From Lachnospiraceae bacterium (GTDB lineage Bacteria; Bacillota; Clostridia; Lachnospirales; Lachnospiraceae), in the NCBI GenBank assembly GCA_024682555.1, contig JAIKZD010000114.1, positions 62,001-126,000 of the forward strand: 64,000 nucleotides of DNA. Direction: 5' to 3'. Position numbers and translations under genes: made by a program. Numbering within the stretch: position 1 is the stretch's first letter; every line of letters starts with the position of its first letter. Shown piece by piece: positions 47,136 through 64,000 of this stretch. The notes beneath the pieces are model-generated. The model worked only from the letters and a program-made list of their open reading frames with translations. It was not told the origin of the DNA and searched no databases.

Positions 47136-47248
47136 GTTCTTAATTGATTTTGATACCTCCTCTTTAGATATTCCAAAAAAACCTCGTTATCATAAGCGTA
47201 AAGAGTTACACTAATAATATGGACGGAGATATATTCAATATTCTGAAG

Positions 47249-47312
47249 TGAGATTTAGGGACGGTTCCTTTTTCTCAAAAAATTGAGACGGAGGAACCGT
47301 CCCCAAATCTCA
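47249..47312. repeat. 64-bp palindromic repeat, copy 1
   Basis: Two 29-bp units (47249-47277 and 47284-47312) in inverted orientation, each bounded by TGAGA and TCTCA and carrying GGGACGGTTCCT. Nearly identical copies are at 49681 and 50864. It lies in the 388-base gap between the hypothetical gene at 46353 and the IS110 transposase; the rest of that gap shows no supportable gene. Confidence 0.9.
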
Positions 47313-47523
47313 TCAGCTGAAAAACTGAGATCTGGAAATAGCAGGCATTTTTTTCAGGCTATTGGATCAAAGACAGCGCTGATGCAGGGAAAGGTACAGA
47401 GGTGACAAACTATAAACAGTCAAGTGCTTTTAAAGATTTTTTGATTTAATAAAAATGAGCATGACAAATAAACCATCTGAATGCATCGTATTTCAGATGG
47501 TGCAATAGAAGCGGTTATTGATG

Positions 47524-48699
47524 TCAGCGAAGAGTGGTAGCTACAAAGTCAGTGTTCTGCCTCTCCAATGCAAAAATGACTCTGACCAATTTCTTTGCGA
47601 CATGTGATATAGCTACACGATGTGGCTTTCCCTCAGAACGCTTCTTGGCGTAGTAGGTTGCAAAGGTTACATCGAAGCGGATCAGTGGTAAAGCACAATT
47701 CATAAGTGTGTACCGAAGTTGGGATGATCCACGCTTAACCATCCGTCCTTTATGAGACTCCGTTCCCGATTCGCTGATACCAGGCTCTAAACCTGCAAAA
47801 GCGAGCATCTGCGCCGGTGATGAAAAATTTGAAATATCTCCGTATTCAGCGTAGATGACAGCGGCAGACAAAGGGCCGATGCCGGGGATTGACATATAGT
47901 GTGGATGAACTTCTTCGATGAGTTCAGTTATTTGGGCTTCAAGAACTGAAATCTGCTTAGCGACCTCCTTGTAAAGTGTCAGCAGACAGGTAAGCTCTGT
48001 ATCGAAAATTGAGTTGTTTACACCAACAGTATTGGTTGCAAGAGCTTTAAGTTCTATAAATTTCTGAGGTGTAAATTTGCCACGAGAAATACGCCTGAGA
48101 TTATCATACGAAGCAGAGTTCATGTGAGCCATCTTTTCTGCGGAGCCGTAGTTTTCAAGAAGGTATAGTGCGGTCTTGCTGAAACGTTCTTGAAAGAATG
48201 GTTTGAACTCTGGGAAGGTGTGATCCAGCACATTTGTAATCTTAACAAGATAAAAAGAACGCTGACGAATAAGACGATCTCTTAAACGGGTTAATGACTT
48301 TAATGAGTAAGCATGATAAAATCCCTTTGAATAGGGTTTGTATTCTACGGTCATTAACCAACGGGCAATGGATTCACAGTCAATGGAATCCGTTTTTGTC
48401 CGCCTCAAAGAAGTAGACTTCTTGTACTCGCTAATGAGGACTGGATTAACTTCCATAAAGCTGTGGTGGGCTTTCTCAAAGAAGAGTTCAAGATTGAGGG
48501 CATAATGGGCAGTAGATTCAAACCCTATTCTTATGTCCTCCGGAGTGGACAGAGACTGGAGAGAAGTGAGTAATTCGTCGAACCCTTTTTTATCATTACG
48601 GATAGTGAATTTGGCGACGATACTTTGATCTGTTGCATTGATGATACAACAGTCATGTTTGTACTTTGAGATGTCTATCCCGACAAAGTACATGGACAT
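47524..48699 (-). CDS. IS110-family transposase
   Basis: A 391-residue recombinase of the IS110 family. The N-terminal RuvC-like DEDD domain has FVGIDISKYKHDC (first Asp), IGFESTAHYA (Glu) and TKTDSIDCESIARW (Asp). The C-terminal Transposase_20 domain has SIPGIGPLSAAVIYAEYGD and MLAFAGLEPGI, with the conserved Ser in KRGSSQLRY. I chose the ATG at 48699 because AAGGAGG lies just upstream; an in-frame ATG at 48768 would add 23 unrelated residues. The gene appears intact. Relatives are guided by a bridge RNA from the noncoding end. Confidence 0.93.
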   Translation of the reverse strand: MSMYFVGIDISKYKHDCCIINATDQSIVAKFTIRNDKKGFDELLTSLQSLSTPEDIRIGFESTAHYALNLELFFEKAHHSFMEVNPVLISEYKKSTSLRRTKTDSIDCESIARWLMTVEYKPYSKGFYHAYSLKSLTRLRDRLIRQRSFYLVKITNVLDHTFPEFKPFFQERFSKTALYLLENYGSAEKMAHMNSASYDNLRRISRGKFTPQKFIELKALATNTVGVNNSIFDTELTCLLTLYKEVAKQISVLEAQITELIEEVHPHYMSIPGIGPLSAAVIYAEYGDISNFSSPAQMLAFAGLEPGISESGTESHKGRMVKRGSSQLRYTLMNCALPLIRFDVTFATYYAKKRSEGKPHRVAISHVAKKLVRVIFALERQNTDFVATTLR

Positions 48700-48890
48700 A
48701 GTGGTACCTCCTTGAATATAAGATTTGGCGCTGCTTGTCTTCCACAGAGAATCCGACTGTGTAATCACGTAAATAGAAACGTCAGAGCGTTAACAAACTG
48801 ATTAACAGTAATAGACGAAAAGCTGTGGTCTGAGTCACCTCGTACCAGTCAAAGCTGTAAAAACATAGGCACAGATCCACAGCGCCTTGA
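48700..48890 (-). ncRNA. Candidate bridge RNA region of the IS110 element
   Basis: IS110 elements of the IS621 type encode a structured bridge RNA in the noncoding segment before the transposase. This segment has the right place and size. Small stems can be seen, for example CACAG/CTGTG near 48740-48760 on the minus strand. I could not derive the target- and donor-binding loops. The call rests on family knowledge and position. Confidence 0.35.
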
Positions 48891-48961
48891 TAAATATATC
48901 AGAAAGAGGATTAGATTACCCAGTAGAATCTGGGAGAAAGGAAAAATCCAATCATCAACTG

Positions 48962-49675
48962 ATGATTGGATTATACGTGACGAACATGAATAAAACGGAT
49001 TTGCATAAGGAATTGTACAGCTTTCAGGATCTGAAATATCGCAATATGCAGATAAAGATAATCCCGAACATAAATCCCGAGTCGATCATTGGAGTGAAGA
49101 CTCCTAAGCTTAAGAGTATCGCAAAGGAAATGTTGAAATCCGAAGAGTATAAGGATTTTTTGAGGGAGCTTTCGCATGAATATTTTGAAGAAAACCAGTT
49201 GCATGCCTTTATCCTTTCCGGGATGAAAGATTATGATGAATGTATGGAGGAACTGGAAAAGTTTCTTCCCTATGTGGATAACTGGGCTACCTGCGACCAG
49301 ATGTCACCGAAGATCTTTAAGAAGCACAGAGAAGCGCTTCTTACGCATATAAAAGAGTGGATTAATTCTGAAGAGACCTATACTGTAAGATTTGGCGTGG
49401 GGATGCTGATGGAACATTTTCTTGATGATGACTATGATCCGAAGTACCCGGAGATGGTAGCCGGACTGAGAAGCGAAGAGTATTACGTCAATATGATGAT
49501 AGCCTGGTATTTTGCAACTGCCCTTGCCAAACAGTATGAAAGCGTAATTCCATATATAGAACAGAAAAGGCTTGATGACTGGACACACAACAAAGCAATT
49601 CAAAAGAGTCTGGAGAGCAGAAGGATTACAGAGGAACAGAAGATCTATTTGAAATCATTGAAAGTAACACGTTAG
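48962..49675 (+). CDS. DNA alkylation repair protein (AlkD-like)
   Basis: A 237-residue HEAT-like-repeat protein resembling AlkD, a glycosylase that removes bulky or cationic alkyl-purine adducts. Recognisable segments are GVKTPKLKSIAKEM, FEENQLHAFILSG, VDNWATCDQM (with the Trp-Asp region of the active face) and VRFGVGMLMEHFLDD. The start may be ATG 48962 or 48986. A 12-bp perfect hairpin (48945-48972, arms AATCCAATCATC/GATGATTGGATT) spans the first start and could hide it, which favours 48986 or regulation. It begins right after the IS110 5' region; the next gene follows a palindromic repeat. Confidence 0.82.
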   Translation: MIGLYVTNMNKTDLHKELYSFQDLKYRNMQIKIIPNINPESIIGVKTPKLKSIAKEMLKSEEYKDFLRELSHEYFEENQLHAFILSGMKDYDECMEELEKFLPYVDNWATCDQMSPKIFKKHREALLTHIKEWINSEETYTVRFGVGMLMEHFLDDDYDPKYPEMVAGLRSEEYYVNMMIAWYFATALAKQYESVIPYIEQKRLDDWTHNKAIQKSLESRRITEEQKIYLKSLKVTR

Positions 49676-49680
49676 CGGTT

Positions 49681-49744
49681 TGAGATTTAGGGACGGTTCC
49701 TTTTTCTCAAAAAAATGAGACGGAGGAACCGTCCCCAAATCTCA
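49681..49744. repeat. 64-bp palindromic repeat, copy 2
   Basis: Units 49681-49709 and 49716-49744, inverted, same sequence as copy 1 except for one or two bases in the spacer. It lies 5 bases after the AlkD-like stop and 31 bases before the acetyltransferase start. Confidence 0.92.
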
Positions 49745-49775
49745 CAAATCTCACAGAAAGGCGAAAAACAGATAG

Positions 49776-50360
49776 ATGAGTAACGATATCAGGATAGTTG
49801 TTTTACCGAAGGACAAGTGGAAAGGCACTCCCATTCCGCTTGTTATAAAGAGCGACAGTTATTATGATTTTGAAATTGCCCCTCTTGATCAGGACGGATG
49901 TACGGTTAAGATAGTGCAAAAACTCTCCGGACAGAAAATAGTACATACTCCGGAGGAATATGATTTTCCGGATGGTTTGTATGCGGATCATTGGGAAAAT
50001 GCAGAGGCTTATGGAATTGTTGGTGAAGATGGCCATTTGCTTGCCTGTATCGAGGTTTGCCCGGAAGAATGGTCTAACAGACTGATGGTAACAGAACTAT
50101 GGGTCTGTGATGAACTGCAGGGAAAGGGTCTCGGTAAAAGACTTATGGATAAGGCAAAAGAAATTGCCGTAAAACAGGATCGCCGAGCGATCATTCTGGA
50201 AACTCAGTCCTGCAATACACATGCCATCGGGTTTTACCTTCATCAGGGGTTTGAATTGATCGGATTTGACACATGCTGCTATACAAATAATGACATAGGA
50301 CGGAGGGAAGTCCGGATCAATCTTGGCTTCTTTTTTCACAGGGAAGGGCGGAGAAATTGA
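49776..50360 (+). CDS. GNAT-family N-acetyltransferase
   Basis: A 194-residue acetyltransferase. The acetyl-CoA binding motif is VCDELQGKGLGKRLMDKAKEIA (about 111-132) and the C-terminal motif is ETQSCNTHAIGFYLHQGFELIGFDTCCY. The N-terminal 90 residues are a separate alpha/beta segment. The substrate is unknown. Its stop overlaps the TTG start of the next gene by 4 bases, so the two are co-translated. Confidence 0.88.
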   Translation: MSNDIRIVVLPKDKWKGTPIPLVIKSDSYYDFEIAPLDQDGCTVKIVQKLSGQKIVHTPEEYDFPDGLYADHWENAEAYGIVGEDGHLLACIEVCPEEWSNRLMVTELWVCDELQGKGLGKRLMDKAKEIAVKQDRRAIILETQSCNTHAIGFYLHQGFELIGFDTCCYTNNDIGRREVRINLGFFFHREGRRN

Positions 50361-50857
50361 AAGAGCACATATTACATCCAATCCCGCCTTTTTATGACAA
50401 GGAATCAAAAATACTTATCCTTGGAAGCTTTCCGTCAGTTAAATCACGTGATCAGATGTTTTTTTACGGGCATCCCCAGAACAGATTCTGGAAGGTAATC
50501 GCGTCGGTCTTTTCGGATAAGGAACCTGAAACGGTTCCCGAAAAGAAGTCATTTTTGAGAACACATCATATTGCTTTGTGGGATGTAATCGGTTCCTGCG
50601 ATATTGAGGGATCATCCGATTCAAGCATTGAAAACGTAGTAGTCAATGACATCTCAAAGATCTTGAAAGAGGCTGATATCCGTTGCATTTTTGTGAACGG
50701 AAAAACTGCGGAAAAGTATTATAAGAGATATATCGAGCCGAAAACAGGAAAAAAAGCAGTTTGTCTGCCGTCCACCAGCCCTGCCAATGCCGCATGGAGT
50801 GTGGATAAACTGGTTCTAAACTGGGGCAGGTCTATCGGGAGTATCCTGAGAACGTGA
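50357..50857 (+). CDS. DNA-deoxyinosine (hypoxanthine) glycosylase, UDG superfamily
   Basis: A 166-residue uracil-DNA-glycosylase-superfamily enzyme resembling the hypoxanthine-DNA glycosylase group. Family segments: ILILGSFPSVKSRDQMFFYGHPQNRFWKVIASVF at the N-terminus, ALWDVIGSCDIEGSSD, and LPSTSPANAAW in the C-terminal active loop. It removes deaminated bases to begin base-excision repair. It starts with TTG (50357), overlapping the acetyltransferase stop, behind a GGAG site. Confidence 0.85.
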   Translation: MKEHILHPIPPFYDKESKILILGSFPSVKSRDQMFFYGHPQNRFWKVIASVFSDKEPETVPEKKSFLRTHHIALWDVIGSCDIEGSSDSSIENVVVNDISKILKEADIRCIFVNGKTAEKYYKRYIEPKTGKKAVCLPSTSPANAAWSVDKLVLNWGRSIGSILRT

Positions 50858-50863
50858 GATTTA

Positions 50864-50928
50864 TGAGATTTAGGGACGGTTCTTTTTTCTCAAAAAAAAT
50901 GAGACGGAGGAACCGTCCCTCCGTCTCA
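50864..50928. repeat. 65-bp palindromic repeat, copy 3
   Basis: Units 50864-50892 and 50900-50928, inverted. The second unit differs at its end (CTCCG in place of CCAAA), and a few extra TGAGAT/TCTCA fragments flank it. It follows the glycosylase stop by 6 bases. Confidence 0.9.
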
Positions 50929-50942
50929 CCAATCTCACAGTC

Positions 50943-51296
50943 TCATCTGTTTGCGGCTATGAGGGTGACCAATTCGGCTGCTATGGTGATCAGCATGCCG
51001 AAACCATAGACAATGATCTCAATTATACCGATCACAAAGAATTTGCGGGACTCACTCTGTCCCTCATTTTTGGCCTTTGAAGCAAACACCGTACCCATAA
51101 CGGACATCACCAGGCAGGGCAGTGTTGTAAAAATCAGGATCAATGTGCCTGCGAGGATTATCGCAACCGCTGTCACATCGCTTCCGGTGGAAAAATAACT
51201 GATCATAAGCGGTATTAAGCATGCTGCCGTGACCGCAAAAATAATAAGCGGTATCAGGGTCAGGATCTTTGCTCTTTTATGATTTTTATTATCCAT
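50943..51296 (-). CDS. Small membrane protein, three predicted segments
   Basis: A 117-residue protein with hydrophobic segments near residues 10-33, 42-72 and 88-114, separated by a charged loop (SKAKNEGQSESRKF). No family recognised. It is alone between the repeat and the signalling operon. Membrane location follows from hydrophobicity; function unknown. Confidence 0.6.
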   Translation of the reverse strand: MDNKNHKRAKILTLIPLIIFAVTAACLIPLMISYFSTGSDVTAVAIILAGTLILIFTTLPCLVMSVMGTVFASKAKNEGQSESRKFFVIGIIEIIVYGFGMLITIAAELVTLIAANR

Positions 51297-51433
51297 GTCT
51301 TCCTCATTTTGTAAGCTATAGAATAAATCTGCATTCTCATCCGGTAACTGCCGGTCATGGGAGTGCTGTCACCGTCACAGTATTAATATTATACAAAATG
51401 AGGGGACAAAACTACCCCCAAAGGTCTATTATC

Positions 51434-52729
51434 CTATTTGATGGTGAAGTACTCCTCGGGAACGTTTACCTTTGTTACACCCATGTAATGGCCGGGGTCT
51501 CCGAAAATATAAGTATCCTGATAAACCAGGAATACATTATCCATTACCTCACCCGTTTCGGCGTTGGTATATTTTGATCCGTTCCATTCGGTCCGGGGCG
51601 TATAGATCTTATATGCCTCTCTTATCGCATTTAGATCGGTCAGTTCCGATTTTCCCATGATAACATTTCTTGCATGTTCCGCAAGACCCGCCGAATTCGT
51701 AAAACCGTATGAAGATGTCCATGTACCGAATCTGCCTGCTCCGCCTGCTGCAACAACAGCTTTTTCCACTTCGGAGGTTATCTTGTCAAAGTCTCCGTCC
51801 GCACCCGTAAGGTTTAAGTCCAGTGCTCCGGGATAACCCATTATCGGTGAGGGAAGATCCGCTTCGATAAAATATCCTCCGTTTTCCATAAGACCCTTGA
51901 TAAGAGGCTCCGTATGTGCATCATTTGTGCAGAAATATGCTGAATTCTTTCCGTATTTTTCCACCCATTCAGGTACATGCTGCGTTATATACTCCTGAGC
52001 GCCGGGGACCCCCACTTCGGTAGTCGGGTCCGGAGCCTCCTCCATTGCAAACTTCATGCCGAATTCCTCACAGGCCGCCTTCATGATGTTCACGCGTCTT
52101 GCATATGTTTCATATGAAAGATGTCTTGGAAAGGAAATATGTACAAATGTATCACAGCCGAGTTCATGCGCAGTGCGTATGATAAGATATCCGCGGGAGA
52201 CAAAATCATTATTGACCACAAGATCGGCCATATCTTTTATATCTTCGAAGACATCGAAGGTTTCGCCTGCAATACACAGGATATCAGGCCGCTTCTCCTT
52301 GATCCTTTTAAAGGCTTCTTCGGTTCCCTCAACTGCCTGATTAACAATGATGGCCTTCATTTTGGGATCATCCGCAAGCCCGGTCATAACTCCTATCGTG
52401 GTCTCCGCTTCATCAGTGAAATTGTCGGGATAAATGGCGAGCGTTACCTTGTCGGATCCGTATTTTTTCTGGAAAGCCTCGGCGCCGCGCCTGTCATCCT
52501 CGGACTGCGAGAATGATCCCGTAACGATGCCTATGCGGAAATCATCGGCATCCTCTTCAGACTGTGCCGGCTTCTCTTCATCTGCTTGTTCCAGGGCGGT
52601 ATTGACCGCCGCAGCCGGTGTCTCTTCCAGTGTATCCTTTGTTACAACTGCCGCGTCCTTTGAACTGCCGCATGCTGTCACGGAAAACATGAGCATTGCC
52701 GCCATGACAGAACACAAGTATTTTTTCAT
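51434..52729 (-). CDS. DUF3798 periplasmic-binding-like lipoprotein
   Basis: A 431-residue exported lipoprotein. The signal ends in the lipobox VTAC with Cys20. A Glu/Ala-rich tether (about 24-65) leads to a two-lobed binding-protein fold (FRIGIVTGSFSQSEDD ... AIIVNQAVEGTEEAFKRI ... LVVNNDFVSRG ... FCTNDAHTEPLIKGLMENG). I associate this with DUF3798. It is the last gene of a seven-gene operon whose two preceding genes are hybrid sensor kinases, so I infer that it captures a small ligand outside the cell and presents it to one of them. It starts 21 bases after the kinase stop. Confidence 0.82.
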   Translation of the reverse strand: MKKYLCSVMAAMLMFSVTACGSSKDAAVVTKDTLEETPAAAVNTALEQADEEKPAQSEEDADDFRIGIVTGSFSQSEDDRRGAEAFQKKYGSDKVTLAIYPDNFTDEAETTIGVMTGLADDPKMKAIIVNQAVEGTEEAFKRIKEKRPDILCIAGETFDVFEDIKDMADLVVNNDFVSRGYLIIRTAHELGCDTFVHISFPRHLSYETYARRVNIMKAACEEFGMKFAMEEAPDPTTEVGVPGAQEYITQHVPEWVEKYGKNSAYFCTNDAHTEPLIKGLMENGGYFIEADLPSPIMGYPGALDLNLTGADGDFDKITSEVEKAVVAAGGAGRFGTWTSSYGFTNSAGLAEHARNVIMGKSELTDLNAIREAYKIYTPRTEWNGSKYTNAETGEVMDNVFLVYQDTYIFGDPGHYMGVTKVNVPEEYFTIK

Positions 52730-52750
52730 AACCTTCTCCTTGATACTTTT

Positions 52751-55150
52751 CTATCCCCTGTTCTTTTCTACAAACTTCGCCGCACTGTCCATATCCTTGA
52801 CAAATACCCCTTTATATTTACTGCCAAGCAGTTCCTTGAGGGCCCGCAGTTTATCAGATGATCCGGAAATCGCGATGACAACCGGTTTTTCTTCATCCGG
52901 TGCACTCTCTTCCGCATCGCTCTTACTCATATCATCCTCTTTTTGTATCAGCGACGGATCAAGGTGTTTTATCAGCATCTCTTCAAGAGCCTCGTACATT
53001 ACAGGTTTACTCAGATAATCCGAGAATCCTTCACTGATGTAATTCTCCTTCGCTCCGACGATCGCGTCTGCGGTAAGCGCGATAACCTTTGTATCATCAG
53101 CAAGATGATCACCGCGTATACTCTCAAGCGTCTGAACACCGGACATACCCGGCATCATCTGATCAAGAAATATCAGGTCAAAGGACATTTCCTTAAGGAT
53201 ATCTATACACTCCCTGCCCGATTCGGCAGTCGTGACTCTCATCTTTGTATCTTCAAGAAGCGCCGTGAAAACCTCGAGGTTCATATCATTGTCATCCACG
53301 ACAAGTATTTTTGCCTTAGGAGCAACAAGCGCCGGTTTAAACTCCTTACCCTCATCCAGCATTTTTGAAAGCTTGTCCGCGAAATCCCCGATCGGAGTCG
53401 TGTCTATCGCCTCCTGTTTCATCGTGGCTGTAAACGTCGTTCCCTCACCGTATTTGCTGCTGACACCGATCGTTCCGTCCATCATCTTTACAAGGCGCAT
53501 CGTGATGTTGAGGCCAAGGCCGGTACCTTCTATATTTCTGTTCTTATCCTCTTCGAGTCTCTGGAAGGATCCGAACAGTTTTCCGAGATCTTCATGTTTG
53601 ATCCCTATCCCTGTATCGGAAACGATCACCTTCATCATGCCATCGGTGTTATCATACGAAACATCAACGGATACCGTTCCCTCGGGAGTATACTTGATAG
53701 CGTTGTTGATAAGGTTGAGCATTACCTGACGTACCCTTATCTCATCACCGCGAAGTATGGAAGGTATGTCTTTCGAAACCTTAAGATCATATATAAGACC
53801 CTTATCCTGAGCTTTCTTCATAGTCATGTTCACAACGTCGTTCATCACCGATGCAAATCCGTATTCAACCGGGACAAGCTCCATCTTGCCGGATTCGATC
53901 TTGGAAAAATCGAGTATATCGTTGATGATCGACAACAATGTCCTGCCTGCGCTTTGAATATCAATAGCGTACCTTCTGACCTTATCCGATACCTTTTCTC
54001 TAAGTATCATCTCATCCATTCCGATGATCGCGTTCATCGGGGTTCTTATTTCATGGGACATATTTGCCAGAAAGTCACTCTTTGCCTTGTTCGAGGCGTT
54101 TGCTGCGTCCTTCTCAAGCTCGAGCAGCTTACGGTCGTAAGCTGTCTTCTGCTCTTCGAGCTTCATCTCCTCCATTTCCTTGTTGTACTTAATTTCATTC
54201 CTGTGACCGATATAATAGATCGCTGCGATCATCATGAAAATAAGGGCGCATATGATGATAATGACCACGCGCTGGATTCTGACTTCCGCGTACAGATCGT
54301 GATCGCTGACTACCATTACCGTATTCCAGTTATTTGCAATCCTGTTGACATAGACCGTATTCTGTTCACCATCCCATGTGTGTGTAAAGCTTCCGGAATC
54401 AGCAGCCTTAATGGCATCCAGGAAATCACTGCCGCCCGGTATATCACATATATTCGTTCCCTTTATGGTCTCATCACGATGAGCGATGATCATGCCGTCA
54501 TCGCTGACAACAAATCCGTATCCCTTACCGTTTAATGTCAGCTCTCTCATTATTGACTGTATTCCCTTAAGCTGAACATCGAGTGCTATAACGCTCTGCC
54601 TGTCCGGCAGCATTCTGCAGGCCGATACTATCAGATTACCTGTCTGGGCATCTATATAAGGAATTGTAAATACAACACTCCCGTCCGCGGCCATCGCCTC
54701 TATGAACCAGTCACGACTCTTCGGGTCATAGTCCTCCGGAGGTACCCAGTTAAGACCATCAAGATATTTTCCCATTATATAACCGTAAATACCTGTATAA
54801 TTCTCATCGAACTGCTCGGCAACTGTATTCGTTTCATCTACAAGGAATTCATGTATCCTTGCCGAAGTGGTCCCGCTTACGAGCATGTGGTGAACACTGT
54901 CGCCGGCAACATGCAATACGTTTTCCGCTGTATTTATATGATTGTTGATCATCGCGGAGACCGTCAGAATCCTGTCTTCCATTACGGCATTCGAGTTGGA
55001 AACCGCAACGTTGTACATAAGCCTTGTCATGTAGATCACCATGACAGTCATGAATATGAACAGAAAGATCATTGGTATGATCATTCCCGTTTTTTTGTGT
55101 GAGCGAATCTTTATTCGCTCTTTTATACTGTTGTTAACAGTATTACCCAT
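52751..55150 (-). CDS. Hybrid histidine kinase with dCache sensor
   Basis: A 799-residue membrane kinase. A membrane segment at about 24-46, a dCache-type extracellular domain (about 50-290, with [18 protein letters not shown] and [18 protein letters not shown]), a second membrane segment (about 295-318), a coiled coil, HisKA with [10 protein letters not shown], HATPase ([22 protein letters not shown]), and a receiver with VDDND, phospho-Asp in [12 protein letters not shown] and Lys in LSKPV. The last 60 residues are a degenerate domain. The kinase must pass phosphate onward, probably through the HPt protein of the same operon. Confidence 0.92.
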
Positions 55151-55165
55151 GTTAATAAAGCCTTT

Positions 55166-57658
55166 CTACACGACGTTCATGATTCCCGAGGTCTCATGCG
55201 TCTTAAGATACTTTTCTTTTGCAGCCTCTCCGACCACGCACACACATTTGTATATGCCGTCGAGTCTTGTTTTCTCCTGCTTGAGTTTCCCGGGATCATC
55301 GCCCCATATGAGCATTACCGGAAGTTCATCCGCACCGCTTGGCGAAAGCTGTTTTTCCTTTGGTATATACTCTTTTAATACCGCTTCAAGAATTTCGTAT
55401 TTTACAGGCTTTGATATATAATCTGTAAAACCCTTGGCCAGATAGCTTTCCTTGGCACCTATGATCGCGTCCGCTGTAAGTGCGATAACAGGGGTCCCTT
55501 TCAGGATATCAAGCCTTTTCATCTCAGCCAGTGCCTCTTCCCCGCTCATACCAGGCATCATCTGATCCAGGAGTATACAATCATACTTTCCTTCTGCAAC
55601 CTTTTCTATACATGCAGCACCGGATTCCACATAGTCTGTAGGTATCTTTGTGTCGCGAAGAAGTCCTTCCATGACATTAAGGTTCATCTCGTTGTCGTCA
55701 ACCACGAGAAGTCTTGCACCCGGAGCATACAGGCCGACTGCATCAGTCTCCATGTTTCCGAGATACTCCCTGACTGCTTTTGAAAAAATCCCTATCGGCG
55801 CAGTATTGACGACCTTCTGTGGTACCGTAATGATAAATTCGCTTCCTTTACCATACTCACTCTCAAAGGAAATATTCCCGTCCATCATCTGAAGCAGGCT
55901 GTTAGTAATATGGAGCCCCAGGCCTGTTCCCTCTATGCTGTGATTTTTCCTTTCGTCAAGCCGCTGGAAGCTCTTGAAAAGTTTGTCCTTGTCCTCCTCC
56001 TTTATTCCCATTCCGGTATCGGTTACCCTGATGATCAGATTGATATAATTGCCCATCATTACGGATTCTGAAGATATATCGACCGAAACACTGCCTTCCT
56101 GCGTATACTTAATGGCATTGTTTATGATATTGAGCATGATCTGCCGGATCCTGATCTCATCGCCCTCAAGCACGGAAGGGATCGATCCGGATACATTGTA
56201 TTCAAAGGCAAGACCTTTCTTATTTGCTCTGTACCTTGTCATATTGAGTACATCGTTAAGTACCGAAGCGATATCATACTCACCGGTGACTATCTCGAAA
56301 TTTCCGGATTCTATCTTGGAAAGATCAAGAATATCATTGATTATCGAAAGCAGCGTGTTTCCCGCGCTCTTGATCTCGAATGCATAATCCCTTATCCGGC
56401 TCTCCCTGGTGTCCCTGATGATCATCTCATCCATGCCGAGTATTCCGTTAAGCGGAGTCCTTATCTCATGAGACATGTTGGCAAGAAAATCGTCCTTGGC
56501 CTTGTTGATATGCATCAGTTCATTTGCTTCCAGCCTTATACCGATGAGCTGCTTGATCGTATGTATTATGGAGCAGATCATAAATCCAAAAAGGCCCAGA
56601 GCCATAAACAGTCCGGAGAATACTCCGTTGTGGGCAAATGCATAAACAAATATCTGAATGATCGCCGCAACAGCCAGAACAACAAATCCTACTGCCACAA
56701 ACCTGTAGGATGTCAGCTGATGTTTTTTCAGATCCATCAACAAAGTAGCAAACATTATAATGATCCCGACTAGTGCACATACAGCAGAGCTCAGAAAACT
56801 GTCAACAAGCGGCACTTTCCCTGATATGAAAAGCACAGCGCAAACAGCAAAATTCAGCATCACAACGACCGCTGCACTCCCGAGCGGTTTTGCATAACGT
56901 CCTTTTTGGAGCGAATTCAAAAATACAAAGAACGGCAGCGGCATGACCATTACCATCAAAAACGGTATGTCGGACATGACCGAAATATTCCTTGTATACA
57001 GCTGTCGGAATATAGAGTTGGACAATACCCAGCAGGCGCCTATTATGACACCGATGGACAGGTGCTCCATCTCCAGATATTTTCTGTGGATAAACTTGTA
57101 TGTTACAGCTGCGATCAGGCAAATGATACCCAGGAGCATGAGAGCCATTCCGACAAACAGTTCCAGACCATATGACCTGAACAGATACGCCAATATTCCC
57201 AGTCTTGTTCCGATATATACCTCATATACCATTCCGGAATTGTACTCATAGTGTACGCGAAGCACTTTCCCTGCATCATCGGGATACAGCGAAGCCATAA
57301 CATAGCACTCGGCGGATCGGTCGCCCAAAAGACGGTAATCCTCCGTCTTATAGACTGCTCTCTCATCGTCATTAACATAGATCTCCATATCCATTCCGCG
57401 AAAGCACAATACGCTGTAATCTTTGTTAAACTGTTCAGGCAGAATTGTTTCAAGGATGATGTCCGAATCCGTTCTCCCGGGCACGGCAAAGGGCTCTCTT
57501 GAACCGTCAGGCTTTATCTCCACCCAGTTGTCACCGGGGAGAATATCGCAAATATTTCCGTTCACAGGGGTATTTGCCGGCATGAATATCTCGCCGCCTA
57601 TGATATATCCGAATACGGATATGAGTATGACCGCAAGGATCGTTTGTATCTTCTTCAA
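55166..57658 (-). CDS. Hybrid histidine kinase with 7TM sensor
   Basis: An 830-residue kinase. An N-terminal membrane segment and an extracellular beta-rich domain (about 30-165, GDNWVEIKPDGSREPFAVPG) are followed by seven hydrophobic segments (about 165-375), the 7TMR-DISM layout. Then come HisKA ([11 protein letters not shown]), HATPase (NNAIKYTQEG, VTDTGMGI, GTGLGLHI), and a receiver ([22 protein letters not shown]). About 70 C-terminal residues resemble the degenerate tail of the dCache kinase. The kinase and receiver parts of the two are close, so they arose by duplication with different sensors. It starts 9 bases after the HPt gene. Confidence 0.92.
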   Translation of the reverse strand: MKKIQTILAVILISVFGYIIGGEIFMPANTPVNGNICDILPGDNWVEIKPDGSREPFAVPGRTDSDIILETILPEQFNKDYSVLCFRGMDMEIYVNDDERAVYKTEDYRLLGDRSAECYVMASLYPDDAGKVLRVHYEYNSGMVYEVYIGTRLGILAYLFRSYGLELFVGMALMLLGIICLIAAVTYKFIHRKYLEMEHLSIGVIIGACWVLSNSIFRQLYTRNISVMSDIPFLMVMVMPLPFFVFLNSLQKGRYAKPLGSAAVVVMLNFAVCAVLFISGKVPLVDSFLSSAVCALVGIIIMFATLLMDLKKHQLTSYRFVAVGFVVLAVAAIIQIFVYAFAHNGVFSGLFMALGLFGFMICSIIHTIKQLIGIRLEANELMHINKAKDDFLANMSHEIRTPLNGILGMDEMIIRDTRESRIRDYAFEIKSAGNTLLSIINDILDLSKIESGNFEIVTGEYDIASVLNDVLNMTRYRANKKGLAFEYNVSGSIPSVLEGDEIRIRQIMLNIINNAIKYTQEGSVSVDISSESVMMGNYINLIIRVTDTGMGIKEEDKDKLFKSFQRLDERKNHSIEGTGLGLHITNSLLQMMDGNISFESEYGKGSEFIITVPQKVVNTAPIGIFSKAVREYLGNMETDAVGLYAPGARLLVVDDNEMNLNVMEGLLRDTKIPTDYVESGAACIEKVAEGKYDCILLDQMMPGMSGEEALAEMKRLDILKGTPVIALTADAIIGAKESYLAKGFTDYISKPVKYEILEAVLKEYIPKEKQLSPSGADELPVMLIWGDDPGKLKQEKTRLDGIYKCVCVVGEAAKEKYLKTHETSGIMNVV

Positions 57659-57667
57659 TATATGAGC

Positions 57668-58270
57668 CTATTCTATCGCCGTTGCGATCTGTCTGATAAT
57701 TTCGGCAGCCTCGTCGTACATAAAATCCTCAATAAACGCGACGGCATCCTTAAGCTTTTCGGCCTGTGTCAATCTGAAAGGATAACCGGACAGTGCTTTG
57801 GCCTGTTTCTTTGCTTCTTCATCATCAAAATCATCAAGCGCCGCAAGAAGTTTATCTGCCGTCTGCTTCGCAATATCCGCTGATATCTCATCTGCTGCCC
57901 GAACGTCGCCCAAACTTCCCATGGGGGAAAGCTTCTGTATGAGGGCGTCATATTCCTGCAGCGCGGTCCCGTTTTGGGCATCGATAACTTCGAACTCCCT
58001 GTTTCGTGCTGCCATCTCAAGCGTCTCAAACAATGACGACAGCTCCGGTGCGCCTATCATCCTGGCGTTGCTCTTCAGGGCATGTACGGTGATCATATAA
58101 CTTTCGTAGTCCTTTGCATCAAGGTACTCCGTTATCCTGGCCCTGTTCTTCTCATAATTCTTATAAAACCGCATAAGGGCCGAGACATACTTGTCCTCTC
58201 CTCCCGTATATGAAATCCCCGTTTCGGTATCAAGTCCGGTTTCCCTTATCCATGTAAGATCGATCTCCAT
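57668..58270 (-). CDS. HPt phosphotransfer protein
   Basis: A 200-residue protein whose first 110 residues are a histidine phosphotransfer domain: FYKNYEKNRARITEYLDAKDYESYMITVHALKSNARMIGA, with the phosphorylated His in VHALKSNAR. The C-terminal 80 residues are extra helices without a known role. I chose the ATG at 58270 with GGTGAT upstream; an earlier in-frame start at 58288 overlaps the previous gene. It is the expected relay between the receivers of the two hybrid kinases and a terminal receiver. Confidence 0.88.
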   Translation of the reverse strand: MEIDLTWIRETGLDTETGISYTGGEDKYVSALMRFYKNYEKNRARITEYLDAKDYESYMITVHALKSNARMIGAPELSSLFETLEMAARNREFEVIDAQNGTALQEYDALIQKLSPMGSLGDVRAADEISADIAKQTADKLLAALDDFDDEEAKKQAKALSGYPFRLTQAEKLKDAVAFIEDFMYDEAAEIIRQIATAIE

Positions 58271-58274
58271 ATCA

Positions 58275-59084
58275 TCACCCCAGAACATCTATGATCTTTG
58301 CCACCACTTCGGATTTCTTTGCAGGCTTAACTATATACCCCTGCGGTTTGAGCTCGGAGAGTGTCTTCACAACCGCGTTTTTTTCGGTCATGCCGGTAAG
58401 GAATATGACCGGGATATCTTCCCATCTCTCTGAATTATGGATATACCGCAAAACATCGGGACCGTCCATGACGGGCATCACGTAATCAAGCAGGATCAGA
58501 TCCGGCCGCTTGTTTACGAGAAAACGGACTGCTGCTTCTCCGCTTTTGACACAGGTAACGTCATAGAATTCCTCAAGCAGTTCTTTGATATGGATCAGCT
58601 GCTCGGTGTCATCATCCACGACAAGTATATGCTTTCTTCTGTTTCTGCGGTCTTTGTTCTCATTGACAAATTCCCGAAAGGCTAACAGATTGTTTTCCCT
58701 GTCCCGATCAAGGGTCTGCTCGATCTCGGTGAGTTTTTCGTAAAGCGCGAGCAGGGAAACAGGGCGGGAGAGGAAGAAAACCCTGTCAAGTTCCGTATAT
58801 TTCACAAACAGCTTCTCATTATCATCATCCGTAATGACGATTATGGTGATGCTTCCCTGCTTCAGCGCCGTCTGCATCACATTATATGGCTGTATCGTAT
58901 CTGCAGTTTCGTTTCCGAGACAGATGATCACGACCTTGGGGCGTTCCGCGATCATGGTGTCAAACAGGGCCGTCTTGCCAGGGCTGCATTTGATCGTCAT
59001 ATACCCTCTGTCTTCTTCAAGATGTCCGCAGATATCCGTGATGATTTTGCGGTTTTTTCCGGTAACCAGAATTTTTAACTGCAT
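58275..59084 (-). CDS. Response regulator: pseudo-receiver plus receiver, no output domain
   Basis: A 269-residue protein. Residues about 1-120 fold like a receiver but lack the acidic pocket and phospho-Asp (VIICLGNETAD in place of the Asp loop). Residues about 150-269 are a canonical receiver: LVVDDDTEQ, LILLDYVMPVMDG with the phospho-Asp, FLTGM and VKPAKK. There is no DNA-binding or enzymatic output. It may act by protein contact or as a phosphate sink. It lies 21 bases after the DUF3021-like gene. Confidence 0.87.
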   Translation of the reverse strand: MQLKILVTGKNRKIITDICGHLEEDRGYMTIKCSPGKTALFDTMIAERPKVVIICLGNETADTIQPYNVMQTALKQGSITIIVITDDDNEKLFVKYTELDRVFFLSRPVSLLALYEKLTEIEQTLDRDRENNLLAFREFVNENKDRRNRRKHILVVDDDTEQLIHIKELLEEFYDVTCVKSGEAAVRFLVNKRPDLILLDYVMPVMDGPDVLRYIHNSERWEDIPVIFLTGMTEKNAVVKTLSELKPQGYIVKPAKKSEVVAKIIDVLG

Positions 59085-59105
59085 TTCATAACCATCCTGT
59101 GTTTT

Positions 59106-59525
59106 CTATTCTTCGTTTTTCTTGAAATACTTAAGCTCTTCGTTGAGCTTTCTGATGGTATGTTTCCAATATGAGTAATTGATGATCCAGATGATCGTAT
59201 AGATGACAACGTAGATGATCATCATGATGACAAACTCTATGTTCCATCGAAACCATTTCATCGGGAGCTCTATGGCCATTATCGTGGCCAGTGTGATCGT
59301 GGCGTGAACGATCGTGGATTTTGTCAGGCCCCAGCTTTCCATGGCATATACCGTGGCCGCCCCGCAGGGGATCAGTCCGTGTATGCCGGACATGACTATA
59401 TGAAGGACAAAGCTTCTTCCTTCCGGATTTCCGATATTGATCATCCAGGTGAAGATCCCTACAATGATCCCGGCTAAAGTGCCTATAAGTGAGTTTATGA
59501 TAAATCTGTCTTTCAGTTCCATCAT
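59106..59525 (-). CDS. DUF3021-like membrane protein (LytTR partner)
   Basis: A 139-residue membrane protein with four hydrophobic segments (FIINSLIGTLAGIIVGIFTWMI; SGIHGLIPCGAATVYAM; TITLATIMAIELPM; FVIMMIIYVVIYTIIWIINYSYW) and a charged C-terminal tail. DUF3021 proteins are commonly encoded beside a LytTR regulator and are thought to hold it in check at the membrane. It overlaps the LytTR stop by four bases (ATGA). Confidence 0.85.
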   Translation of the reverse strand: MMELKDRFIINSLIGTLAGIIVGIFTWMINIGNPEGRSFVLHIVMSGIHGLIPCGAATVYAMESWGLTKSTIVHATITLATIMAIELPMKWFRWNIEFVIMMIIYVVIYTIIWIINYSYWKHTIRKLNEELKYFKKNEE

Positions 59526-60004
59526 TCAAACCCCCTGATATGATTCTGCGTCAGAAACTCCTTGATCTGTTTGACACGGCTTCTTGATGCCCATGATTTG
59601 ATACCGCAGTCAAACTCTACTCCGATCGTTCCTGCCAGATTAAAATCCAGGCTCTTGACCTTATAAATATTTATGATCTCCGACTGGGATATCCTTAAGA
59701 ACCGCGTGGGATTAAGCACATCCTCTATACCCGCAAGAGTCCTTTTAACCGTGAATACGTCCTTCTCTGTCTGTACTACGATCTTACGGCCCTCCGTATG
59801 CACCCTTACTATATCCTTTTGGGAAACAAACTCGACCACGTCGTCTTTAACAGCCGCTATCTGTGGAAAATCACTATGAGACGCATCTTCGATAGCGCAA
59901 ATGATGTTTTCAACCTGTTGTGTGTTCGATTTGGTTCTGATCGTAACGAACGGATCTGTATAACGTTCATCAAGGACCACCTCGATTTCTACCATATCTT
60001 TCAT
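59522..60004 (-). CDS. LytTR-family DNA-binding regulator
   Basis: A 160-residue regulator without a receiver. The C-terminal LytTR domain spans about 60-155 (VSQKDIVRVHTEGRKIVVQTEKDVFTVKRTLAGIED ... FLRISQSEIINIYKVKSLD ... VEFDCGIKSWASRSRVKQIKEFL). I prefer the ATG at 60004 with GGTGA upstream; the ATG at 60019 has almost no leader behind the predicted transcription start, and 59995 is also possible. It is the first gene of the operon and probably activates it through the 21-bp-spaced repeats upstream. Confidence 0.88.
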   Translation of the reverse strand: MKDMVEIEVVLDERYTDPFVTIRTKSNTQQVENIICAIEDASHSDFPQIAAVKDDVVEFVSQKDIVRVHTEGRKIVVQTEKDVFTVKRTLAGIEDVLNPTRFLRISQSEIINIYKVKSLDFNLAGTIGVEFDCGIKSWASRSRVKQIKEFLTQNHIRGFE

Positions 60005-60036
60005 CTGTTCACCGTCCATTTGCTGAAAATATAGTA

Positions 60037-60109: not shown

Positions 60110-60158
60110 ATTTATACGAAACGAAATGATGGAATAGAAACGAAAAAAGAAAAAGACA

Positions 60159-60255
60159 CAGGGCGCCAGCCCTGCGAGATACGAACCTGTTCGAGTCCGA
60201 TCAGGACTCGAACAACACAAGAAGCCGGGGCATTCATGCCCCGGCCTCTTGTGTT
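60159..60255 (-). terminator. Three tandem hairpins after tRNA-Arg
   Basis: Reading on the minus strand: an 18-bp arm hairpin with one mismatch (60255-60214, GCCGGGGCA core), a perfect 10-bp hairpin GTTCGAGTCC/GGACTCGAAC (60213-60189), and CAGGGC/GCCCTG (60174-60159) followed by a T-rich tract (TTTTTCTTTTTT). The last is a standard intrinsic terminator. Confidence 0.8.
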
Positions 60256-60260
60256 CTGAG

Positions 60261-60334
60261 CGTCCACGAGAGGATTCGAACCTCCGACCTACCGCTTAGG
60301 AGGCGGTCGCTCTATCCAGCTGAGCTACGCGGAC
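60261..60334 (-). tRNA. tRNA-Arg (anticodon CCT)
   Basis: A 74-base cloverleaf: acceptor GTCCGCG/CGTGGAC with one G-U pair, discriminator G, no encoded CCA. The D arm is GCTCAGCTGGATAGAGC. The anticodon stem ACCGC/GCGGT encloses CTCCTAA, anticodon CCT, which reads AGG. The T arm contains GGTTCGAATCC. Confidence 0.95.
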
Positions 60335-60378: not shown

Positions 60379-61287
60379 CTACAGAGAAATATCTATGGCG
60401 CTCGGCTCATTTGGAAAATTCAAAAAGCCCTGCATCCATATATCTCCTTTGAATCTTCGCCCCGGAGCCGGCTCGCCGAAAAGATCCTTTTCGTTTATCG
60501 CAACATCAAACATCAGCTCGTTACACATGACGCGCATCACAACCACCCTCTCCCTTGTGAGGAAATTGGTCGTCACGCGGTGATCCACGATCTCCCCCAG
60601 TATGGAGTACAGATCGCACTCCACACCGCGGGGCATAAAACTGGTGTCAACCAGAGAGTATATATCATCTTTTTTTGCCTTCTGCGACAAAACCGCATAC
60701 ATATCCATGTCGTAGAGCGACAGCGTCTCCATCGCATCCTCGTCGCCGGCTCTGGCCGCAGCGATAACCTGATTCCTGCCTGCCGCTCTGCGCCTTAGTT
60801 CCTCTTTCTGCTCACTCGTTTTTTCGAGCGGCATAATGATCTTTCCGGAAAGAGAAAGCGCTGACAGAGAAACCGACATGCCGGGCTCGGGGAAACTATC
60901 CTGCCCCGCAGCCCGAAGATAGGGAATCTTATTCTGCAGGTAGAATATGAGCGTGACTCCTACCCGCAGTTCCTCGCAGACCCCGGCAAATGAATCATCA
61001 TACTTATTCCTCTCAACGATCACCTCTTCGGCAGTACTTACTCCGGAGCCGCGCAGATAAGGAAAATAATAATCATAGATGAAATGGTCGTTCTCATCCA
61101 TCTCACCGCATATGGACAGTCCTATGCCTGCGCCGAAATCCCGGTCGAATTGCGCCGTGAGGTGCGTATCGCTCCCGGTTGTATACAGCCTTTTATCGGC
61201 ATCATGTACCGCATCGCCTATTATATTGTTCAGTTCAGTGCGGCTTTCTATATCGGAAAAACCGACCGCTCTTAGAAACTGGTGCAA
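60379..61287 (-). CDS. DUF3881-like conserved protein (second copy)
   Basis: A 302-residue homologue of the protein at 34139-35014. Both start with TTG and MH(S/Q)(Y/F)LRAVGFS. They share FAGVCEELRVGVTLIFYLQN, ARAGDEDAMETLSLYDMDMYA, VECDLYSILGEI and GEPAPGRRFKGDIWMQG. Identity is moderate, roughly 40%, too low for a recent duplication. It has a short C-terminal extension (PNEPSAIDISL). It lies 19 bases after serS. Function unknown. Confidence 0.75.
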   Translation of the reverse strand: MHQFLRAVGFSDIESRTELNNIIGDAVHDADKRLYTTGSDTHLTAQFDRDFGAGIGLSICGEMDENDHFIYDYYFPYLRGSGVSTAEEVIVERNKYDDSFAGVCEELRVGVTLIFYLQNKIPYLRAAGQDSFPEPGMSVSLSALSLSGKIIMPLEKTSEQKEELRRRAAGRNQVIAAARAGDEDAMETLSLYDMDMYAVLSQKAKKDDIYSLVDTSFMPRGVECDLYSILGEIVDHRVTTNFLTRERVVVMRVMCNELMFDVAINEKDLFGEPAPGRRFKGDIWMQGFLNFPNEPSAIDISL

Positions 61288-61306
61288 ATATCTTCTCCCG
61301 TTAAGA

Positions 61307-62590
61307 TCAGCGCGCAGTCAGGATTTCCTTGCCGCCCATGTAAGGTCTGAGCGCCACGGGTATGTTTACACTGCCATCTGCATTGAGGTTGTTCTCGAGG
61401 AAGGCGATCAGCATTCTGGGCGGCGCCACAACCGTATTGTTTAAGGTATGCGCGAGGTAGTTGCCGTTCTCACCCTTGATCCTGATGCGAAGCCTTCTGG
61501 CCTGGGCATCACCGAGGTTGGAGCAGCTGCCCACCTCGAAATACTTCTTCTGTCTGGGAGACCATGCTTCCACATCACAGGATTTGACTTTGAGATCAGC
61601 CAGATCGCCGGAGCAGCATTCAAGCGTTCTCACCGGAATATCAAGACTGCGGAAGAGATCGACCGTATTCTTCCAGAGCCTGTCGTACCATACCTTGGAA
61701 TCCTCTGGCTTACATACGACGATCATCTCCTGCTTTTCAAACTGATGTATCCTGTAAACACCGCGCTCTTCCAACCCATGCGCTCCCTTTTCCTTGCGGA
61801 AGCAGGGCGAATAGCTTGTAAGGGTCTGGGGCAGATCAGCCTCGGGTATCTGCTGATCAATAAACTTACCGATCATGGAATGCTCGCTGGTACCGATAAG
61901 GTACAGATCCTCGCCTTCGATCTTATACATCATTGCGTCCATCTCGGGGAAGCTCATAACTCCTTCGACGACAGCAGCATGGATCATGAACGGAGGTATG
62001 ACATATGTAAAGCCCCTGTCGATCATAAAATCACGCGCATATGCAAGAACTGCGGAATGAAGTCTCGCCACATCGCCGATCAGATAATAGAAACCGTTGC
62101 CAGCCACGCGCCTCGCGGAATCAAGATCTATCCCGCCAAGCTTTTCCATGATATCCGTGTGATAAGGTATCTCAAAGGCAGGTACAAAGGGTTCGCCGAA
62201 TTTCTCTATCTCTACATTGCAGCTGTCATCCTTGCCGATCGGAACTGTATCATCGATCATCTGCGGGATCACCATCATTTTGGAGCGGAGCTCATCATCG
62301 ACCTCATGCTGGATCTTTTCGAGTTCCTTTATCCGCTCGCCGTCGGTCGCGACCTGAGCCTTGATCTTTTCCGCCTCTTCCTTTTTGCCCTGGGACATAA
62401 GTGCGCCGATCTCCTTTGAGATCTTGTTTCTCTGAGCGCGCAGCTCATCCGCTTCTCTCTGGGTCTCGCGGCTCTTTTGATCGAGTGCGATCACCTCATC
62501 AACAAGCGGCAGCTTTTCGTCCTGGAATTTCTTTTTGATGTTTTCCTTTACCGCATCGGGATTTTCCCTTACAAATTTGATATCTAACAT
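61307..62590 (-). CDS. serS: Seryl-tRNA synthetase
   Basis: A 427-residue class II synthetase charging tRNA-Ser. The N-terminal coiled-coil arm spans about 28-105. Class II motifs are visible: the TSEHSMIGKFIDQQIPEADLP region, motif 2 in SPCFRKEKGAHGLEERGVYRIHQFEKQEMI, and motif 3 in HTLNNTVVAPPRMLIAFLENN. The C-terminus is VALRPYMGGKEIL. It lies between a DUF4446 gene and a DUF3881-like gene; the first parB block at 32-35 kb has no serS. No T-box leader is seen; only 13 bases separate it from the upstream gene. Confidence 0.97.
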   Translation of the reverse strand: MLDIKFVRENPDAVKENIKKKFQDEKLPLVDEVIALDQKSRETQREADELRAQRNKISKEIGALMSQGKKEEAEKIKAQVATDGERIKELEKIQHEVDDELRSKMMVIPQMIDDTVPIGKDDSCNVEIEKFGEPFVPAFEIPYHTDIMEKLGGIDLDSARRVAGNGFYYLIGDVARLHSAVLAYARDFMIDRGFTYVIPPFMIHAAVVEGVMSFPEMDAMMYKIEGEDLYLIGTSEHSMIGKFIDQQIPEADLPQTLTSYSPCFRKEKGAHGLEERGVYRIHQFEKQEMIVVCKPEDSKVWYDRLWKNTVDLFRSLDIPVRTLECCSGDLADLKVKSCDVEAWSPRQKKYFEVGSCSNLGDAQARRLRIRIKGENGNYLAHTLNNTVVAPPRMLIAFLENNLNADGSVNIPVALRPYMGGKEILTAR

Positions 62591-62603
62591 ATCTTCTGCC
62601 TCC

Positions 62604-63107
62604 TTATTCCTGCGCCAGTGCGCGGTCCAACGCCTGTTTTTCCTCAGTGCCGAGCTCCAGATCCGAGCGGCCGTCCTTTATTTCCTTGACATATGTATAA
62701 TTCCCTTCCTGGCTGTGAACCGAGTTCAGGACTATGCCATTATCATCATCATTCAAAAGTGCCAACGCAAAAGAGAGCTTCCCGCCCATCTGATTGAAGG
62801 CATCGTACTTTATCAGTCCCAGCTTCCTGAAGCTGGTTTCAAGCAATGCCTGTTGTTTATCCAGTCTCTCATGAATATCATGTGCGTCCTCGGTCAGGAT
62901 ATCATTTGCCTCAAAGAGATGTATGATCTCCGATTCCAGACTGGACGCGGTCTTTCCGCGAAGAAGCCTGTCCAGACGCCTGTTGATATCCTTTATAGTT
63001 TTTCTGTCCCGCGACCACAGTATGAACATGATGATGAGCAAAACCGCCAATACCGCGATCACTGCCAAAAGCAGCGGATCCGATAACAATACCGTCTCGC
63101 CGGCCAT
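62604..63107 (-). CDS. DUF4446 membrane protein (second copy)
   Basis: A 167-residue protein with one N-terminal membrane helix (about 10-31), a coiled coil (about 55-90), and the conserved core LGLIKYDAFNQMGGKLSFALALLNDDDNGIVLNSVHSQEG. This core matches that of the protein at 33574-34098, while the N-terminal regions differ. It lies 13 bases after parB copy 2. Function unknown. Confidence 0.85.
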   Translation of the reverse strand: MAGETVLLSDPLLLAVIAVLAVLLIIMFILWSRDRKTIKDINRRLDRLLRGKTASSLESEIIHLFEANDILTEDAHDIHERLDKQQALLETSFRKLGLIKYDAFNQMGGKLSFALALLNDDDNGIVLNSVHSQEGNYTYVKEIKDGRSDLELGTEEKQALDRALAQE

Positions 63108-63120
63108 CTCCGCTCTCCTT

Positions 63121-64000
63121 TCAGACCCGGTTTCTCAGGCGATCGACTATTCTTTCCAGATCATCTCCCGAGTAAAATTCTATCTCGATCTTTCCGGTAC
63201 CTGCATCTTCACCCGTAATAATAACTCTGGTCCCCAGTTCTTCCGTGAGTTTTTCCTCAAGCTCACGATAGACCGCATCGAGATTGGCATCCTTCTGCTT
63301 TGTCTTCTTCGGTTTTTTGGGACGATCCAGACTCTTTACCAGTTTTTCGGTCTCCCTGACACTCAAGTTTTCATCAAAGACCTGCTGCGCGGTTGTAATC
63401 TGGAGTTCCTTGTCCTCAATGGGGATAAGGGCCCGCGCGTGACCCGTGGTAAGCTTCTCATCGATTAGCATCTGCTGTACATCATCGGTGAGTTTAAGAA
63501 GACGGAGTGAATTGGTGATCGCGGTCCTGCTCTTGGAAACGCGCTCCGCAACTTCATCCTGCTTCAGATGAAAGACCTCTATAAGCTGCTTGTATGCCCT
63601 GGCTTCCTCAATGGAATTCAGGTTCTCGCGCTGGATGTTCTCAATGAGAGATATCTCGGCAAGCTCCTGCTCGCTCAGATCGTCTTTTACTATCGCAGGT
63701 ATCTCTTTAAGATTTGCCAGATGTGCAGCGCGCCATCTGCGCTCGCCCGCCACGATCTCGTAGTGGTCACCTTTACTTACCACAAGGATCGGAGCGACAA
63801 CACCGTGCTGTTTAATGGATTCGGCCAGTTCATTTAATTTGTCTTCATTAAAGGTCTTTCTTGCCTGCTCTTTGTTGGGTTCGATCCTTGTAATGTTAAT
63901 GCTTTGTACCACCTGTCCCTCAGGTATCTTAACACCGGCCATATCGGCAATAGGTGCTGCCGAAGGTATCAGGTTTTCCAGGCCGCCGCCCAGTCCTCTT
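63121..64000 (-). CDS. parB: ParB/Spo0J partition protein (second copy), N-terminus off the window
   Basis: The frame is open to the window edge. The residues beyond the first internal Met (63942) read RGLGGGLENLIPSAAPIAD, the ParA-contact motif of ParB N-termini, so only one or a few residues are missing. It has the CTP-binding motif VAGERRWRAAHLANL and the helix-turn-helix QDEVAERVSKSRTAITNSLRLLKL. It is homologous to, but clearly different from, the ParB at 32660, and uses CGC/CGG for many Arg codons where the first copy uses AGA/AGG. A partner parA is expected just beyond 64000. Confidence 0.95.
   Translation of the reverse strand, partial: RGLGGGLENLIPSAAPIADMAGVKIPEGQVVQSINITRIEPNKEQARKTFNEDKLNELAESIKQHGVVAPILVVSKGDHYEIVAGERRWRAAHLANLKEIPAIVKDDLSEQELAEISLIENIQRENLNSIEEARAYKQLIEVFHLKQDEVAERVSKSRTAITNSLRLLKLTDDVQQMLIDEKLTTGHARALIPIEDKELQITTAQQVFDENLSVRETEKLVKSLDRPKKPKKTKQKDANLDAVYRELEEKLTEELGTRVIITGEDAGTGKIEIEFYSGDDLERIVDRLRNRV

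Follow-up and report, generated by a model that had tools for sequence, protein, structure and literature searches.

Contig JAIKZD010000114.1 (C80; 152,899 bp) of the draft genome of a Lachnospiraceae bacterium (G000) carries two diverged dnaA origin regions in opposite orientation, and is interpreted here as an inter-species chimeric contig produced by assembly (probability about 0.92). The window, meaning the whole stretch of 64,000 nucleotides that was analysed, is C80:62001-126000; positions without a contig prefix are window positions. Under the chimeric reading, approximately 122 kb of the host genus (g1, the genus of G000 itself), including the true origin (copy 1), would have been joined, in assembly and not in a cell, to a ~31 kb origin region (copy 2) of a second Lachnospiraceae species. 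This reading is preferred because the pattern is that expected of a chimeric contig: surplus single-copy genes of another lineage occur in no draft but this contaminated one, are attached at a single edge and run to the contig end. The two sides were assigned to different lineages, the single-copy gene DUF3881 was doubled only here, and the composition of the foreign part was unlike the rest of the bin.

Gene families were assigned by Pfam and transfer RNA (tRNA) genes by ARAGORN, parS-like sites and DnaA boxes were scored against consensus motifs, and the contig was followed for 26.9 kb past the window end. Copy 1 is a complete dnaA origin region from gyrA to DUF3881 (14.6-35.0 kb; Table 1). 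Copy 2 begins at 60.4 kb in the opposite orientation and passes the window end to gyrA. The original prediction had described an inverted parB-DUF4446-serS-DUF3881 block at 60379-64000 mirroring the genes at 31855-35014; coordinates, strands and Pfam families agreed with this, and a TTG start is listed for both DUF3881 genes, as it had noted. It had further suggested that parA, rsmG, mnmG and a second dnaA be sought beyond 64000. All were found, together with dnaN, recF, gyrB and gyrA, and the block is larger than first described: past the window, parB-parA-rsmG-mnmG-mnmE-jag-yidC-rnpA lie on the minus strand, followed by dnaA-dnaN-recF-gyrB-gyrA on the plus strand (Pfam). A family 2 glycosyl hydrolase gene and six more genes follow gyrA up to the contig end at C80:152899. 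The parS-like sites of copy 1 are at 31584 and 31633 (one mismatch and none), those of copy 2 at 64997 and 65092 (one mismatch each), with a weaker one at 65925, and DnaA boxes were located beside each dnaA (21881, 23464 and 23487 in copy 1; 72815, 72839 and 72917 in copy 2). The dnaA genes are ~50 kb apart, GC (guanine-cytosine) skew switches sign at both (5-kb bins), and judging from their sequence both origins look complete. The DnaA C-terminal domain gave two matches in the whole genome at E 0.001, both on C80; the PF08299 match of copy-1 dnaA is at C80:84054-84257.

The 15 protein pairs compared between the copies are 34-76% identical (rnpA 34, rsmG 42, mnmE 44, yidC 48, jag 52, dnaA 53, recF 55, dnaN 55, mnmG 65, gyrA 72 and gyrB 76%), a likeness far beyond chance. 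As the original prediction had argued from moderate identity, the pair does not represent a recent duplication, because between-copy identities are low (ParB 51%, ParA 61%, DUF4446 39%, DUF3881 42%). A phylogenetic tree was built from mnmG, parA, parB, DUF4446 and DUF3881 (21 rows, 3 of them without mnmG). Copy 1 grouped with G004 and G016 (both g1) and copy 2 with the metagenome-assembled genomes (MAGs) RUI060, RGIG1458 and RGIG6728, each at 100% bootstrap support. The kin of copy 2, RUI489 among them, are Lachnospiraceae MAGs of another clade, with a rumen source named for two of the four. An old, diverged duplication within the host lineage would account for the same genes occurring twice on one contig, but the copies fall in different clades at full support and none of the congeners (19 of 37 matched) has a second full DUF3881, which leaves such a duplication extremely improbable.

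Within the stretches compared, the best match by percent identity fell in the kin group for 16 of 16 copy-2 proteins and in g1 for 12 of 16 copy-1 proteins, the latter including the product of the neighbouring dacA-like gene, a homolog of which is also found near DUF3881 in several g1 genomes. Copy-1 parA, parB, DUF4446 and DUF3881 are 79, 69, 83 and 72% identical to those of G004. The remaining four copy-1 proteins (gyrA, dnaN, dnaA and rnpA) were somewhat closer to other genera, and the compared stretches of G004 and G016 had no match for these four. The copy-1 dnaN product is 65-67% identical to those of two other genera versus 58% to those of two g1 genomes, and the copy-1 recF, dnaN and dnaA genes (19348-23328) are low in GC (0.36-0.39). 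In one scan of the genome collection, copy-2 DUF3881 was 71% identical to its homolog in RUI060, 70% in RGIG1458, 73% in RGIG6728 and 68% in RUI489, the next best matches being 51-52%.

Gene order in the kin was also compared. RGIG6728 has the same order from yidC to DUF3881, and its contig also carries the remaining genes. RUI489 has, in order, serS, DUF3881, ligase, binding protein, permease, ATPase, a gene of the 328-amino acid type and kinase. The last six of these, at L063:1517-7264 in RUI489, where DUF3881 precedes them, recur in unchanged order at C80:147039-152897, following gyrA and one further gene, which places the right end of C80 in the second lineage. The arrangement suggests that the origin block has been turned round between the copy-2 lineage and RUI489, as by an inversion around the origin.

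DUF3881 had a match in 58 of 99 genomes (counting G000) and in 19 of the 37 g1 genomes; two full copies were present in G000 only, and the two DUF3881 rows returned for each of G062 and G084 are adjacent pieces of one gene. The gene was single in each of the eight genomes that supplied the kin and outgroup loci and in the four nearest kin genomes; genomes without a match, many of them incomplete, are uninformative on copy number. The DUF3881 of the g1 genome G024 (G024:C76:189-1073) is 43% identical to copy 1, versus 48-72% in other matching congeners, and may be a contaminant too. dnaA (two) and serS (two) were counted in G000 alone. The serS count, which the original prediction had proposed as a check, comprises copy 2 and C57:8003-9274, which are 80% identical. 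The draft consists of 3,125,500 bases in 159 contigs with 95.69% completeness and 5.84% contamination, and this last value probably owes much to the doubled block.

Two readings had been offered in the original prediction, a second, foreign partition module or two related genomes joined in assembly. Joined genomes are best supported; the partition module is weakened, since copy 2 is a whole dnaA-gyrA region with serS. Copy 2 could in principle stem from the same cell as copy 1, as part of a chromid or plasmid that was misjoined to the chromosome; its composition, unlike the rest of the draft, agrees with such a second replicon. The content of copy 2, a dnaA-gyrA chromosomal origin with serS, and the single DUF3881 of each kin genome tested argue against such a replicon, and no plasmid-type replication family was found in Pfam scans of 19 genes at C80:126095-152897 (a 106-amino acid open reading frame (ORF) at C80:133670-133990 lay outside the scan); the probability of this origin is close to nil.

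Composition was assessed from GC-corrected tetranucleotides, comparing ten-kb pieces of C80 with its left and right parts. All 11 pieces of C80:2134-112133 and all 20 stretches sampled from the other contigs of G000 were closer to the left part, the three pieces from C80:122134 on were closer to the right part, and the piece at C80:112134-122133 was undecided. Composition sets the right part apart from the draft and does not name its source. C80 to the left of window position 14.6 kb would be assigned to the host on composition only.

The join probably lies at ~60,134-60,150, with the LytTR gene on one side and the hairpins that follow tRNA-Arg on the other, and less probably at 51.3-51.4 kb; the interval 50.9-60.3 kb, in which the original prediction had looked for a break, would thus contain it. 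The signalling cluster at 51434-60019 is 78-82% identical at the nucleotide level to five g1 genomes (two lacking the DUF3798 end in the stretches compared), and similarity to all five ends at 60128-60133. To the right of 60133 are hairpins, a palindrome, tRNA-Arg and DUF3881. In a tree of the cluster, C80 grouped with the g1 genome G009 at 100% support. In G009 a dacA-like gene is ~1.5 kb away from the cluster and the two are oriented to each other as in C80, where the spacing is looser. This linkage was seen in one g1 genome of five; of the remaining four, two were compared over <5 kb on that side, and G010 has cluster and gene on different contigs. The stretch at 36573-51296 has piecewise nucleotide similarity of ~65-88% to g1 genomes among the matches listed. 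Third-position coding skew was negative in all four minus-strand genes at 36.5-44.5 kb and positive in four of seven cluster genes, a shift that favours the earlier join only weakly, as g1 genomes, too, have such skew in a cluster lying wholly on the minus strand.

Table 1. Features of the window, in order of position (coordinates are window positions; a point marks features without strand)
Feature	Position	Strand	Basis
gyrA, copy 1	14639-17278	-	Pfam DNA_topoisoIV 5.1e-170
gyrB, copy 1	17377-19320	-	Pfam DNA_gyraseB 1.5e-66
recF, dnaN, dnaA, copy 1	19348-23328	-	Pfam SMC_N, DNA_pol3_beta, Bac_DnaA 7e-69; GC 0.39, 0.39, 0.36
rnpA, yidC, jag, mnmE, mnmG, rsmG, copy 1	23831-30814	+	Pfam
Two parS-like sites, copy 1	31584-31648	.	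1 and 0 mismatches to consensus
parA, parB, DUF4446, DUF3881, copy 1	31855-35014	+	Pfam
D-Ala-D-Ala carboxypeptidase (dacA-like), beside copy 1	35011-36528	+	Peptidase_S11 2e-55
Accessory genes: two MatE transporters, pyridoxal phosphate decarboxylase, AraC-type, hybrid kinase, IS110, DNA alkylation repair, GNAT, uracil-DNA glycosylase (UDG)-like, others	36573-51296	.	Pfam
Alternative join	51297-51433	.	GC skew sign change, weak third-position skew change
Cluster: DUF3798, two hybrid kinases, Hpt, response regulator, DUF3021, LytTR	51434-60019	-	Pfam, cluster tree; both lineages
Likeliest join, between LytTR gene and hairpins after tRNA-Arg	60134-60150	.	End of g1 similarity
Perfect palindrome GTTCGAGTCC-N5-GGACTCGAAC, after tRNA	60189-60213	.	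Sequence search
tRNA-Arg(CCT), directly after copy-2 DUF3881	60260-60334	-	ARAGORN
DUF3881, copy 2	60379-61287	-	Pfam 1.5e-109
serS, copy 2	61307-62590	-	Seryl-tRNA synthetase core 9e-30
DUF4446, copy 2	62604-63107	-	Pfam 1.3e-46
parB, copy 2	63121-64011 (window stops at 64000)	-	ParB HTH 1e-36, ParB_N 5.5e-32

Several observations weigh against a chimera joined at 60.1 kb. C80 is without any N and has no visible break. The cluster, minus its response regulator, is also present in the kin genome RGIG1458 at ~75%, and the border at 60128-60133 could be merely that of a cluster common to both lineages; the sign of the GC skew also flips near 51 kb. No long repeat shared at the join turned up: elsewhere in G000, a 301-base query was matched only via its tRNA part and over lengths of <=27 bases. 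The host side would be expected to continue with a small neighbour gene that is recognisable in the DNA of four of the five g1 genomes; this gene had no match in the bin (one 73-amino acid query, no positive control), and the next gene of the second lineage, a response regulator, had no close match in the bin except one in the left part of C80; the alternative assembly branches may be absent from the bin. In composition the right part correlates alike with kin (0.892) and g1 loci (0.891), and its GC of 0.491 lies between 0.558 in the kin and 0.440 in g1. The original prediction had reported a shift of arginine codons from AGA/AGG in the first copy to many CGC/CGG in the second. The contrast exists: to the left of 36.5 kb CGN makes up 271 of 1384 Arg codons (0.196), and to the right of 60.1 kb it makes up 212 of 550 (0.385). 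There is, however, no step at 60 kb: the fraction is already 0.376 (74 of 197) at 36.5-51.3 kb, where IS110 and a hybrid kinase account for 35 of the 74 CGN codons, and 0.385 (45 of 117) at 51.3-60.1 kb, so that the shift begins at ~36.5 kb and not at the proposed join. These counts were made on a mechanical ORF set in which both DUF4446 genes were displaced by antisense ORFs. Lastly, in the GUNC paper (PMC8201837) misassemblies are given as relatively rare beside mis-binning.

The continuity of the contig would suit a real lateral transfer, in which a complete inverted foreign origin (dnaA, parAB with parS-like sites, gyrAB and serS) was captured ~50 kb from the host dnaA and two origins coexist. 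Full-length genes in both copies, each with parS-like sites and with DnaA boxes beside dnaA, and the skew switches at both dnaA genes point the same way. However, no other DUF3881-bearing genome examined has two full copies, the foreign part reaches the contig end with no return to host sequence seen, and the draft is contaminated. Pfam scans of 20 ORFs at 36.6-60.0 kb found no integrase and one IS110 transposase. Lateral transfer is accordingly considered unlikely, at odds of roughly one in twenty, and assembly of two species into one contig remains the preferred explanation.

Composition was also tried for placing the join and was rejected: the cluster at 51.4-60.0 kb looked nearer the foreign part, but in the five g1 genomes its profile is similarly ambiguous (differences -0.064 to -0.002; C80 -0.029). 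The tRNA-Arg(CCT) gene was likewise considered as an integration site and rejected, since tRNA-Arg(CCT) after DUF3881 recurs in several other lineages. It is not at the four nearest kin loci (L060-L063), which counts against assigning the tRNA to the copy-2 side; a promoter-like TTGAAA that by eye starts 5 bases past the copy-2 DUF3881 stop favours that side. The palindrome GTTCGAGTCC-N5-GGACTCGAAC, which follows tRNA-Arg(CCT) and a hairpin, was found in G000 and G010 (G010:C6:26793-26817) and not in the other 40 of 42 genomes searched, and by eye both halves look like the T-arm of a tRNA.

Between the two origin regions, the IS110-type transposase gene is at 47524-48768. The gene at 42120-44501 encodes a kinase-like protein whose histidine kinase and receiver domains precede a solute-binding domain at the C-terminus (SBP_bac_1, residues 537-695), an unusual order. 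The seven-gene signalling cluster at 51434-60019 is found mostly intact, next to differing neighbours, both among g1 genomes and among other-lineage kin, and may travel between genera. In G009, L076:10796-12874 (G009:C4) is a 692-amino acid open frame with a methyltransferase domain (PF02390) and a D-Ala-D-Ala carboxypeptidase domain (PF00768).

If the contig is chimeric, ~31 kb of the origin contig in this draft, or ~40 kb should the join be the earlier one, is from another species, and C80 would mislead any survey of DnaA paralogs, horizontal transfer or duplicated origins. If it is real, it would allow one to ask in a natural setting whether two unrelated dnaA origins, both complete, can be maintained by one bacterium. 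As biology the case is ordinary, and its value is as a contamination flag for this genome record. In the literature searched, no paper named DUF4446 or DUF3881 and none combined Lachnospiraceae with double origins.

Among known systems, Mycobacterium bovis BCG Pasteur likewise has the rnpA-dnaA-dnaN-recF-gyrB-gyrA region twice on one molecule (PMC4403523), and PMC2448323 speaks of tandem duplications. The BCG Pasteur copies are called identical (PMC4403523), whereas those of C80 are inverted, from different lineages and as diverged as given above. Putative double-oriC chromosomes were compiled by Gao in 2015 (PMC4403523), including Dehalobacter sp. CF, where two origin-like regions are 150 kb apart and the second was possibly brought by an extrachromosomal element; the same paper reports no evidence of two functional origins in use on one bacterial chromosome. 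Those cases come from RefSeq chromosomes, while C80 is one contig of a contaminated draft with dnaA in both copies. The chimeric MAG contigs treated in the GUNC paper (PMC8201837) resemble C80 in combining fragments from two sources, carrying single-copy genes in surplus and changing in lineage assignment along their length. C80 differs from them in that both of its pieces are origin regions, which mimics a biological second origin.

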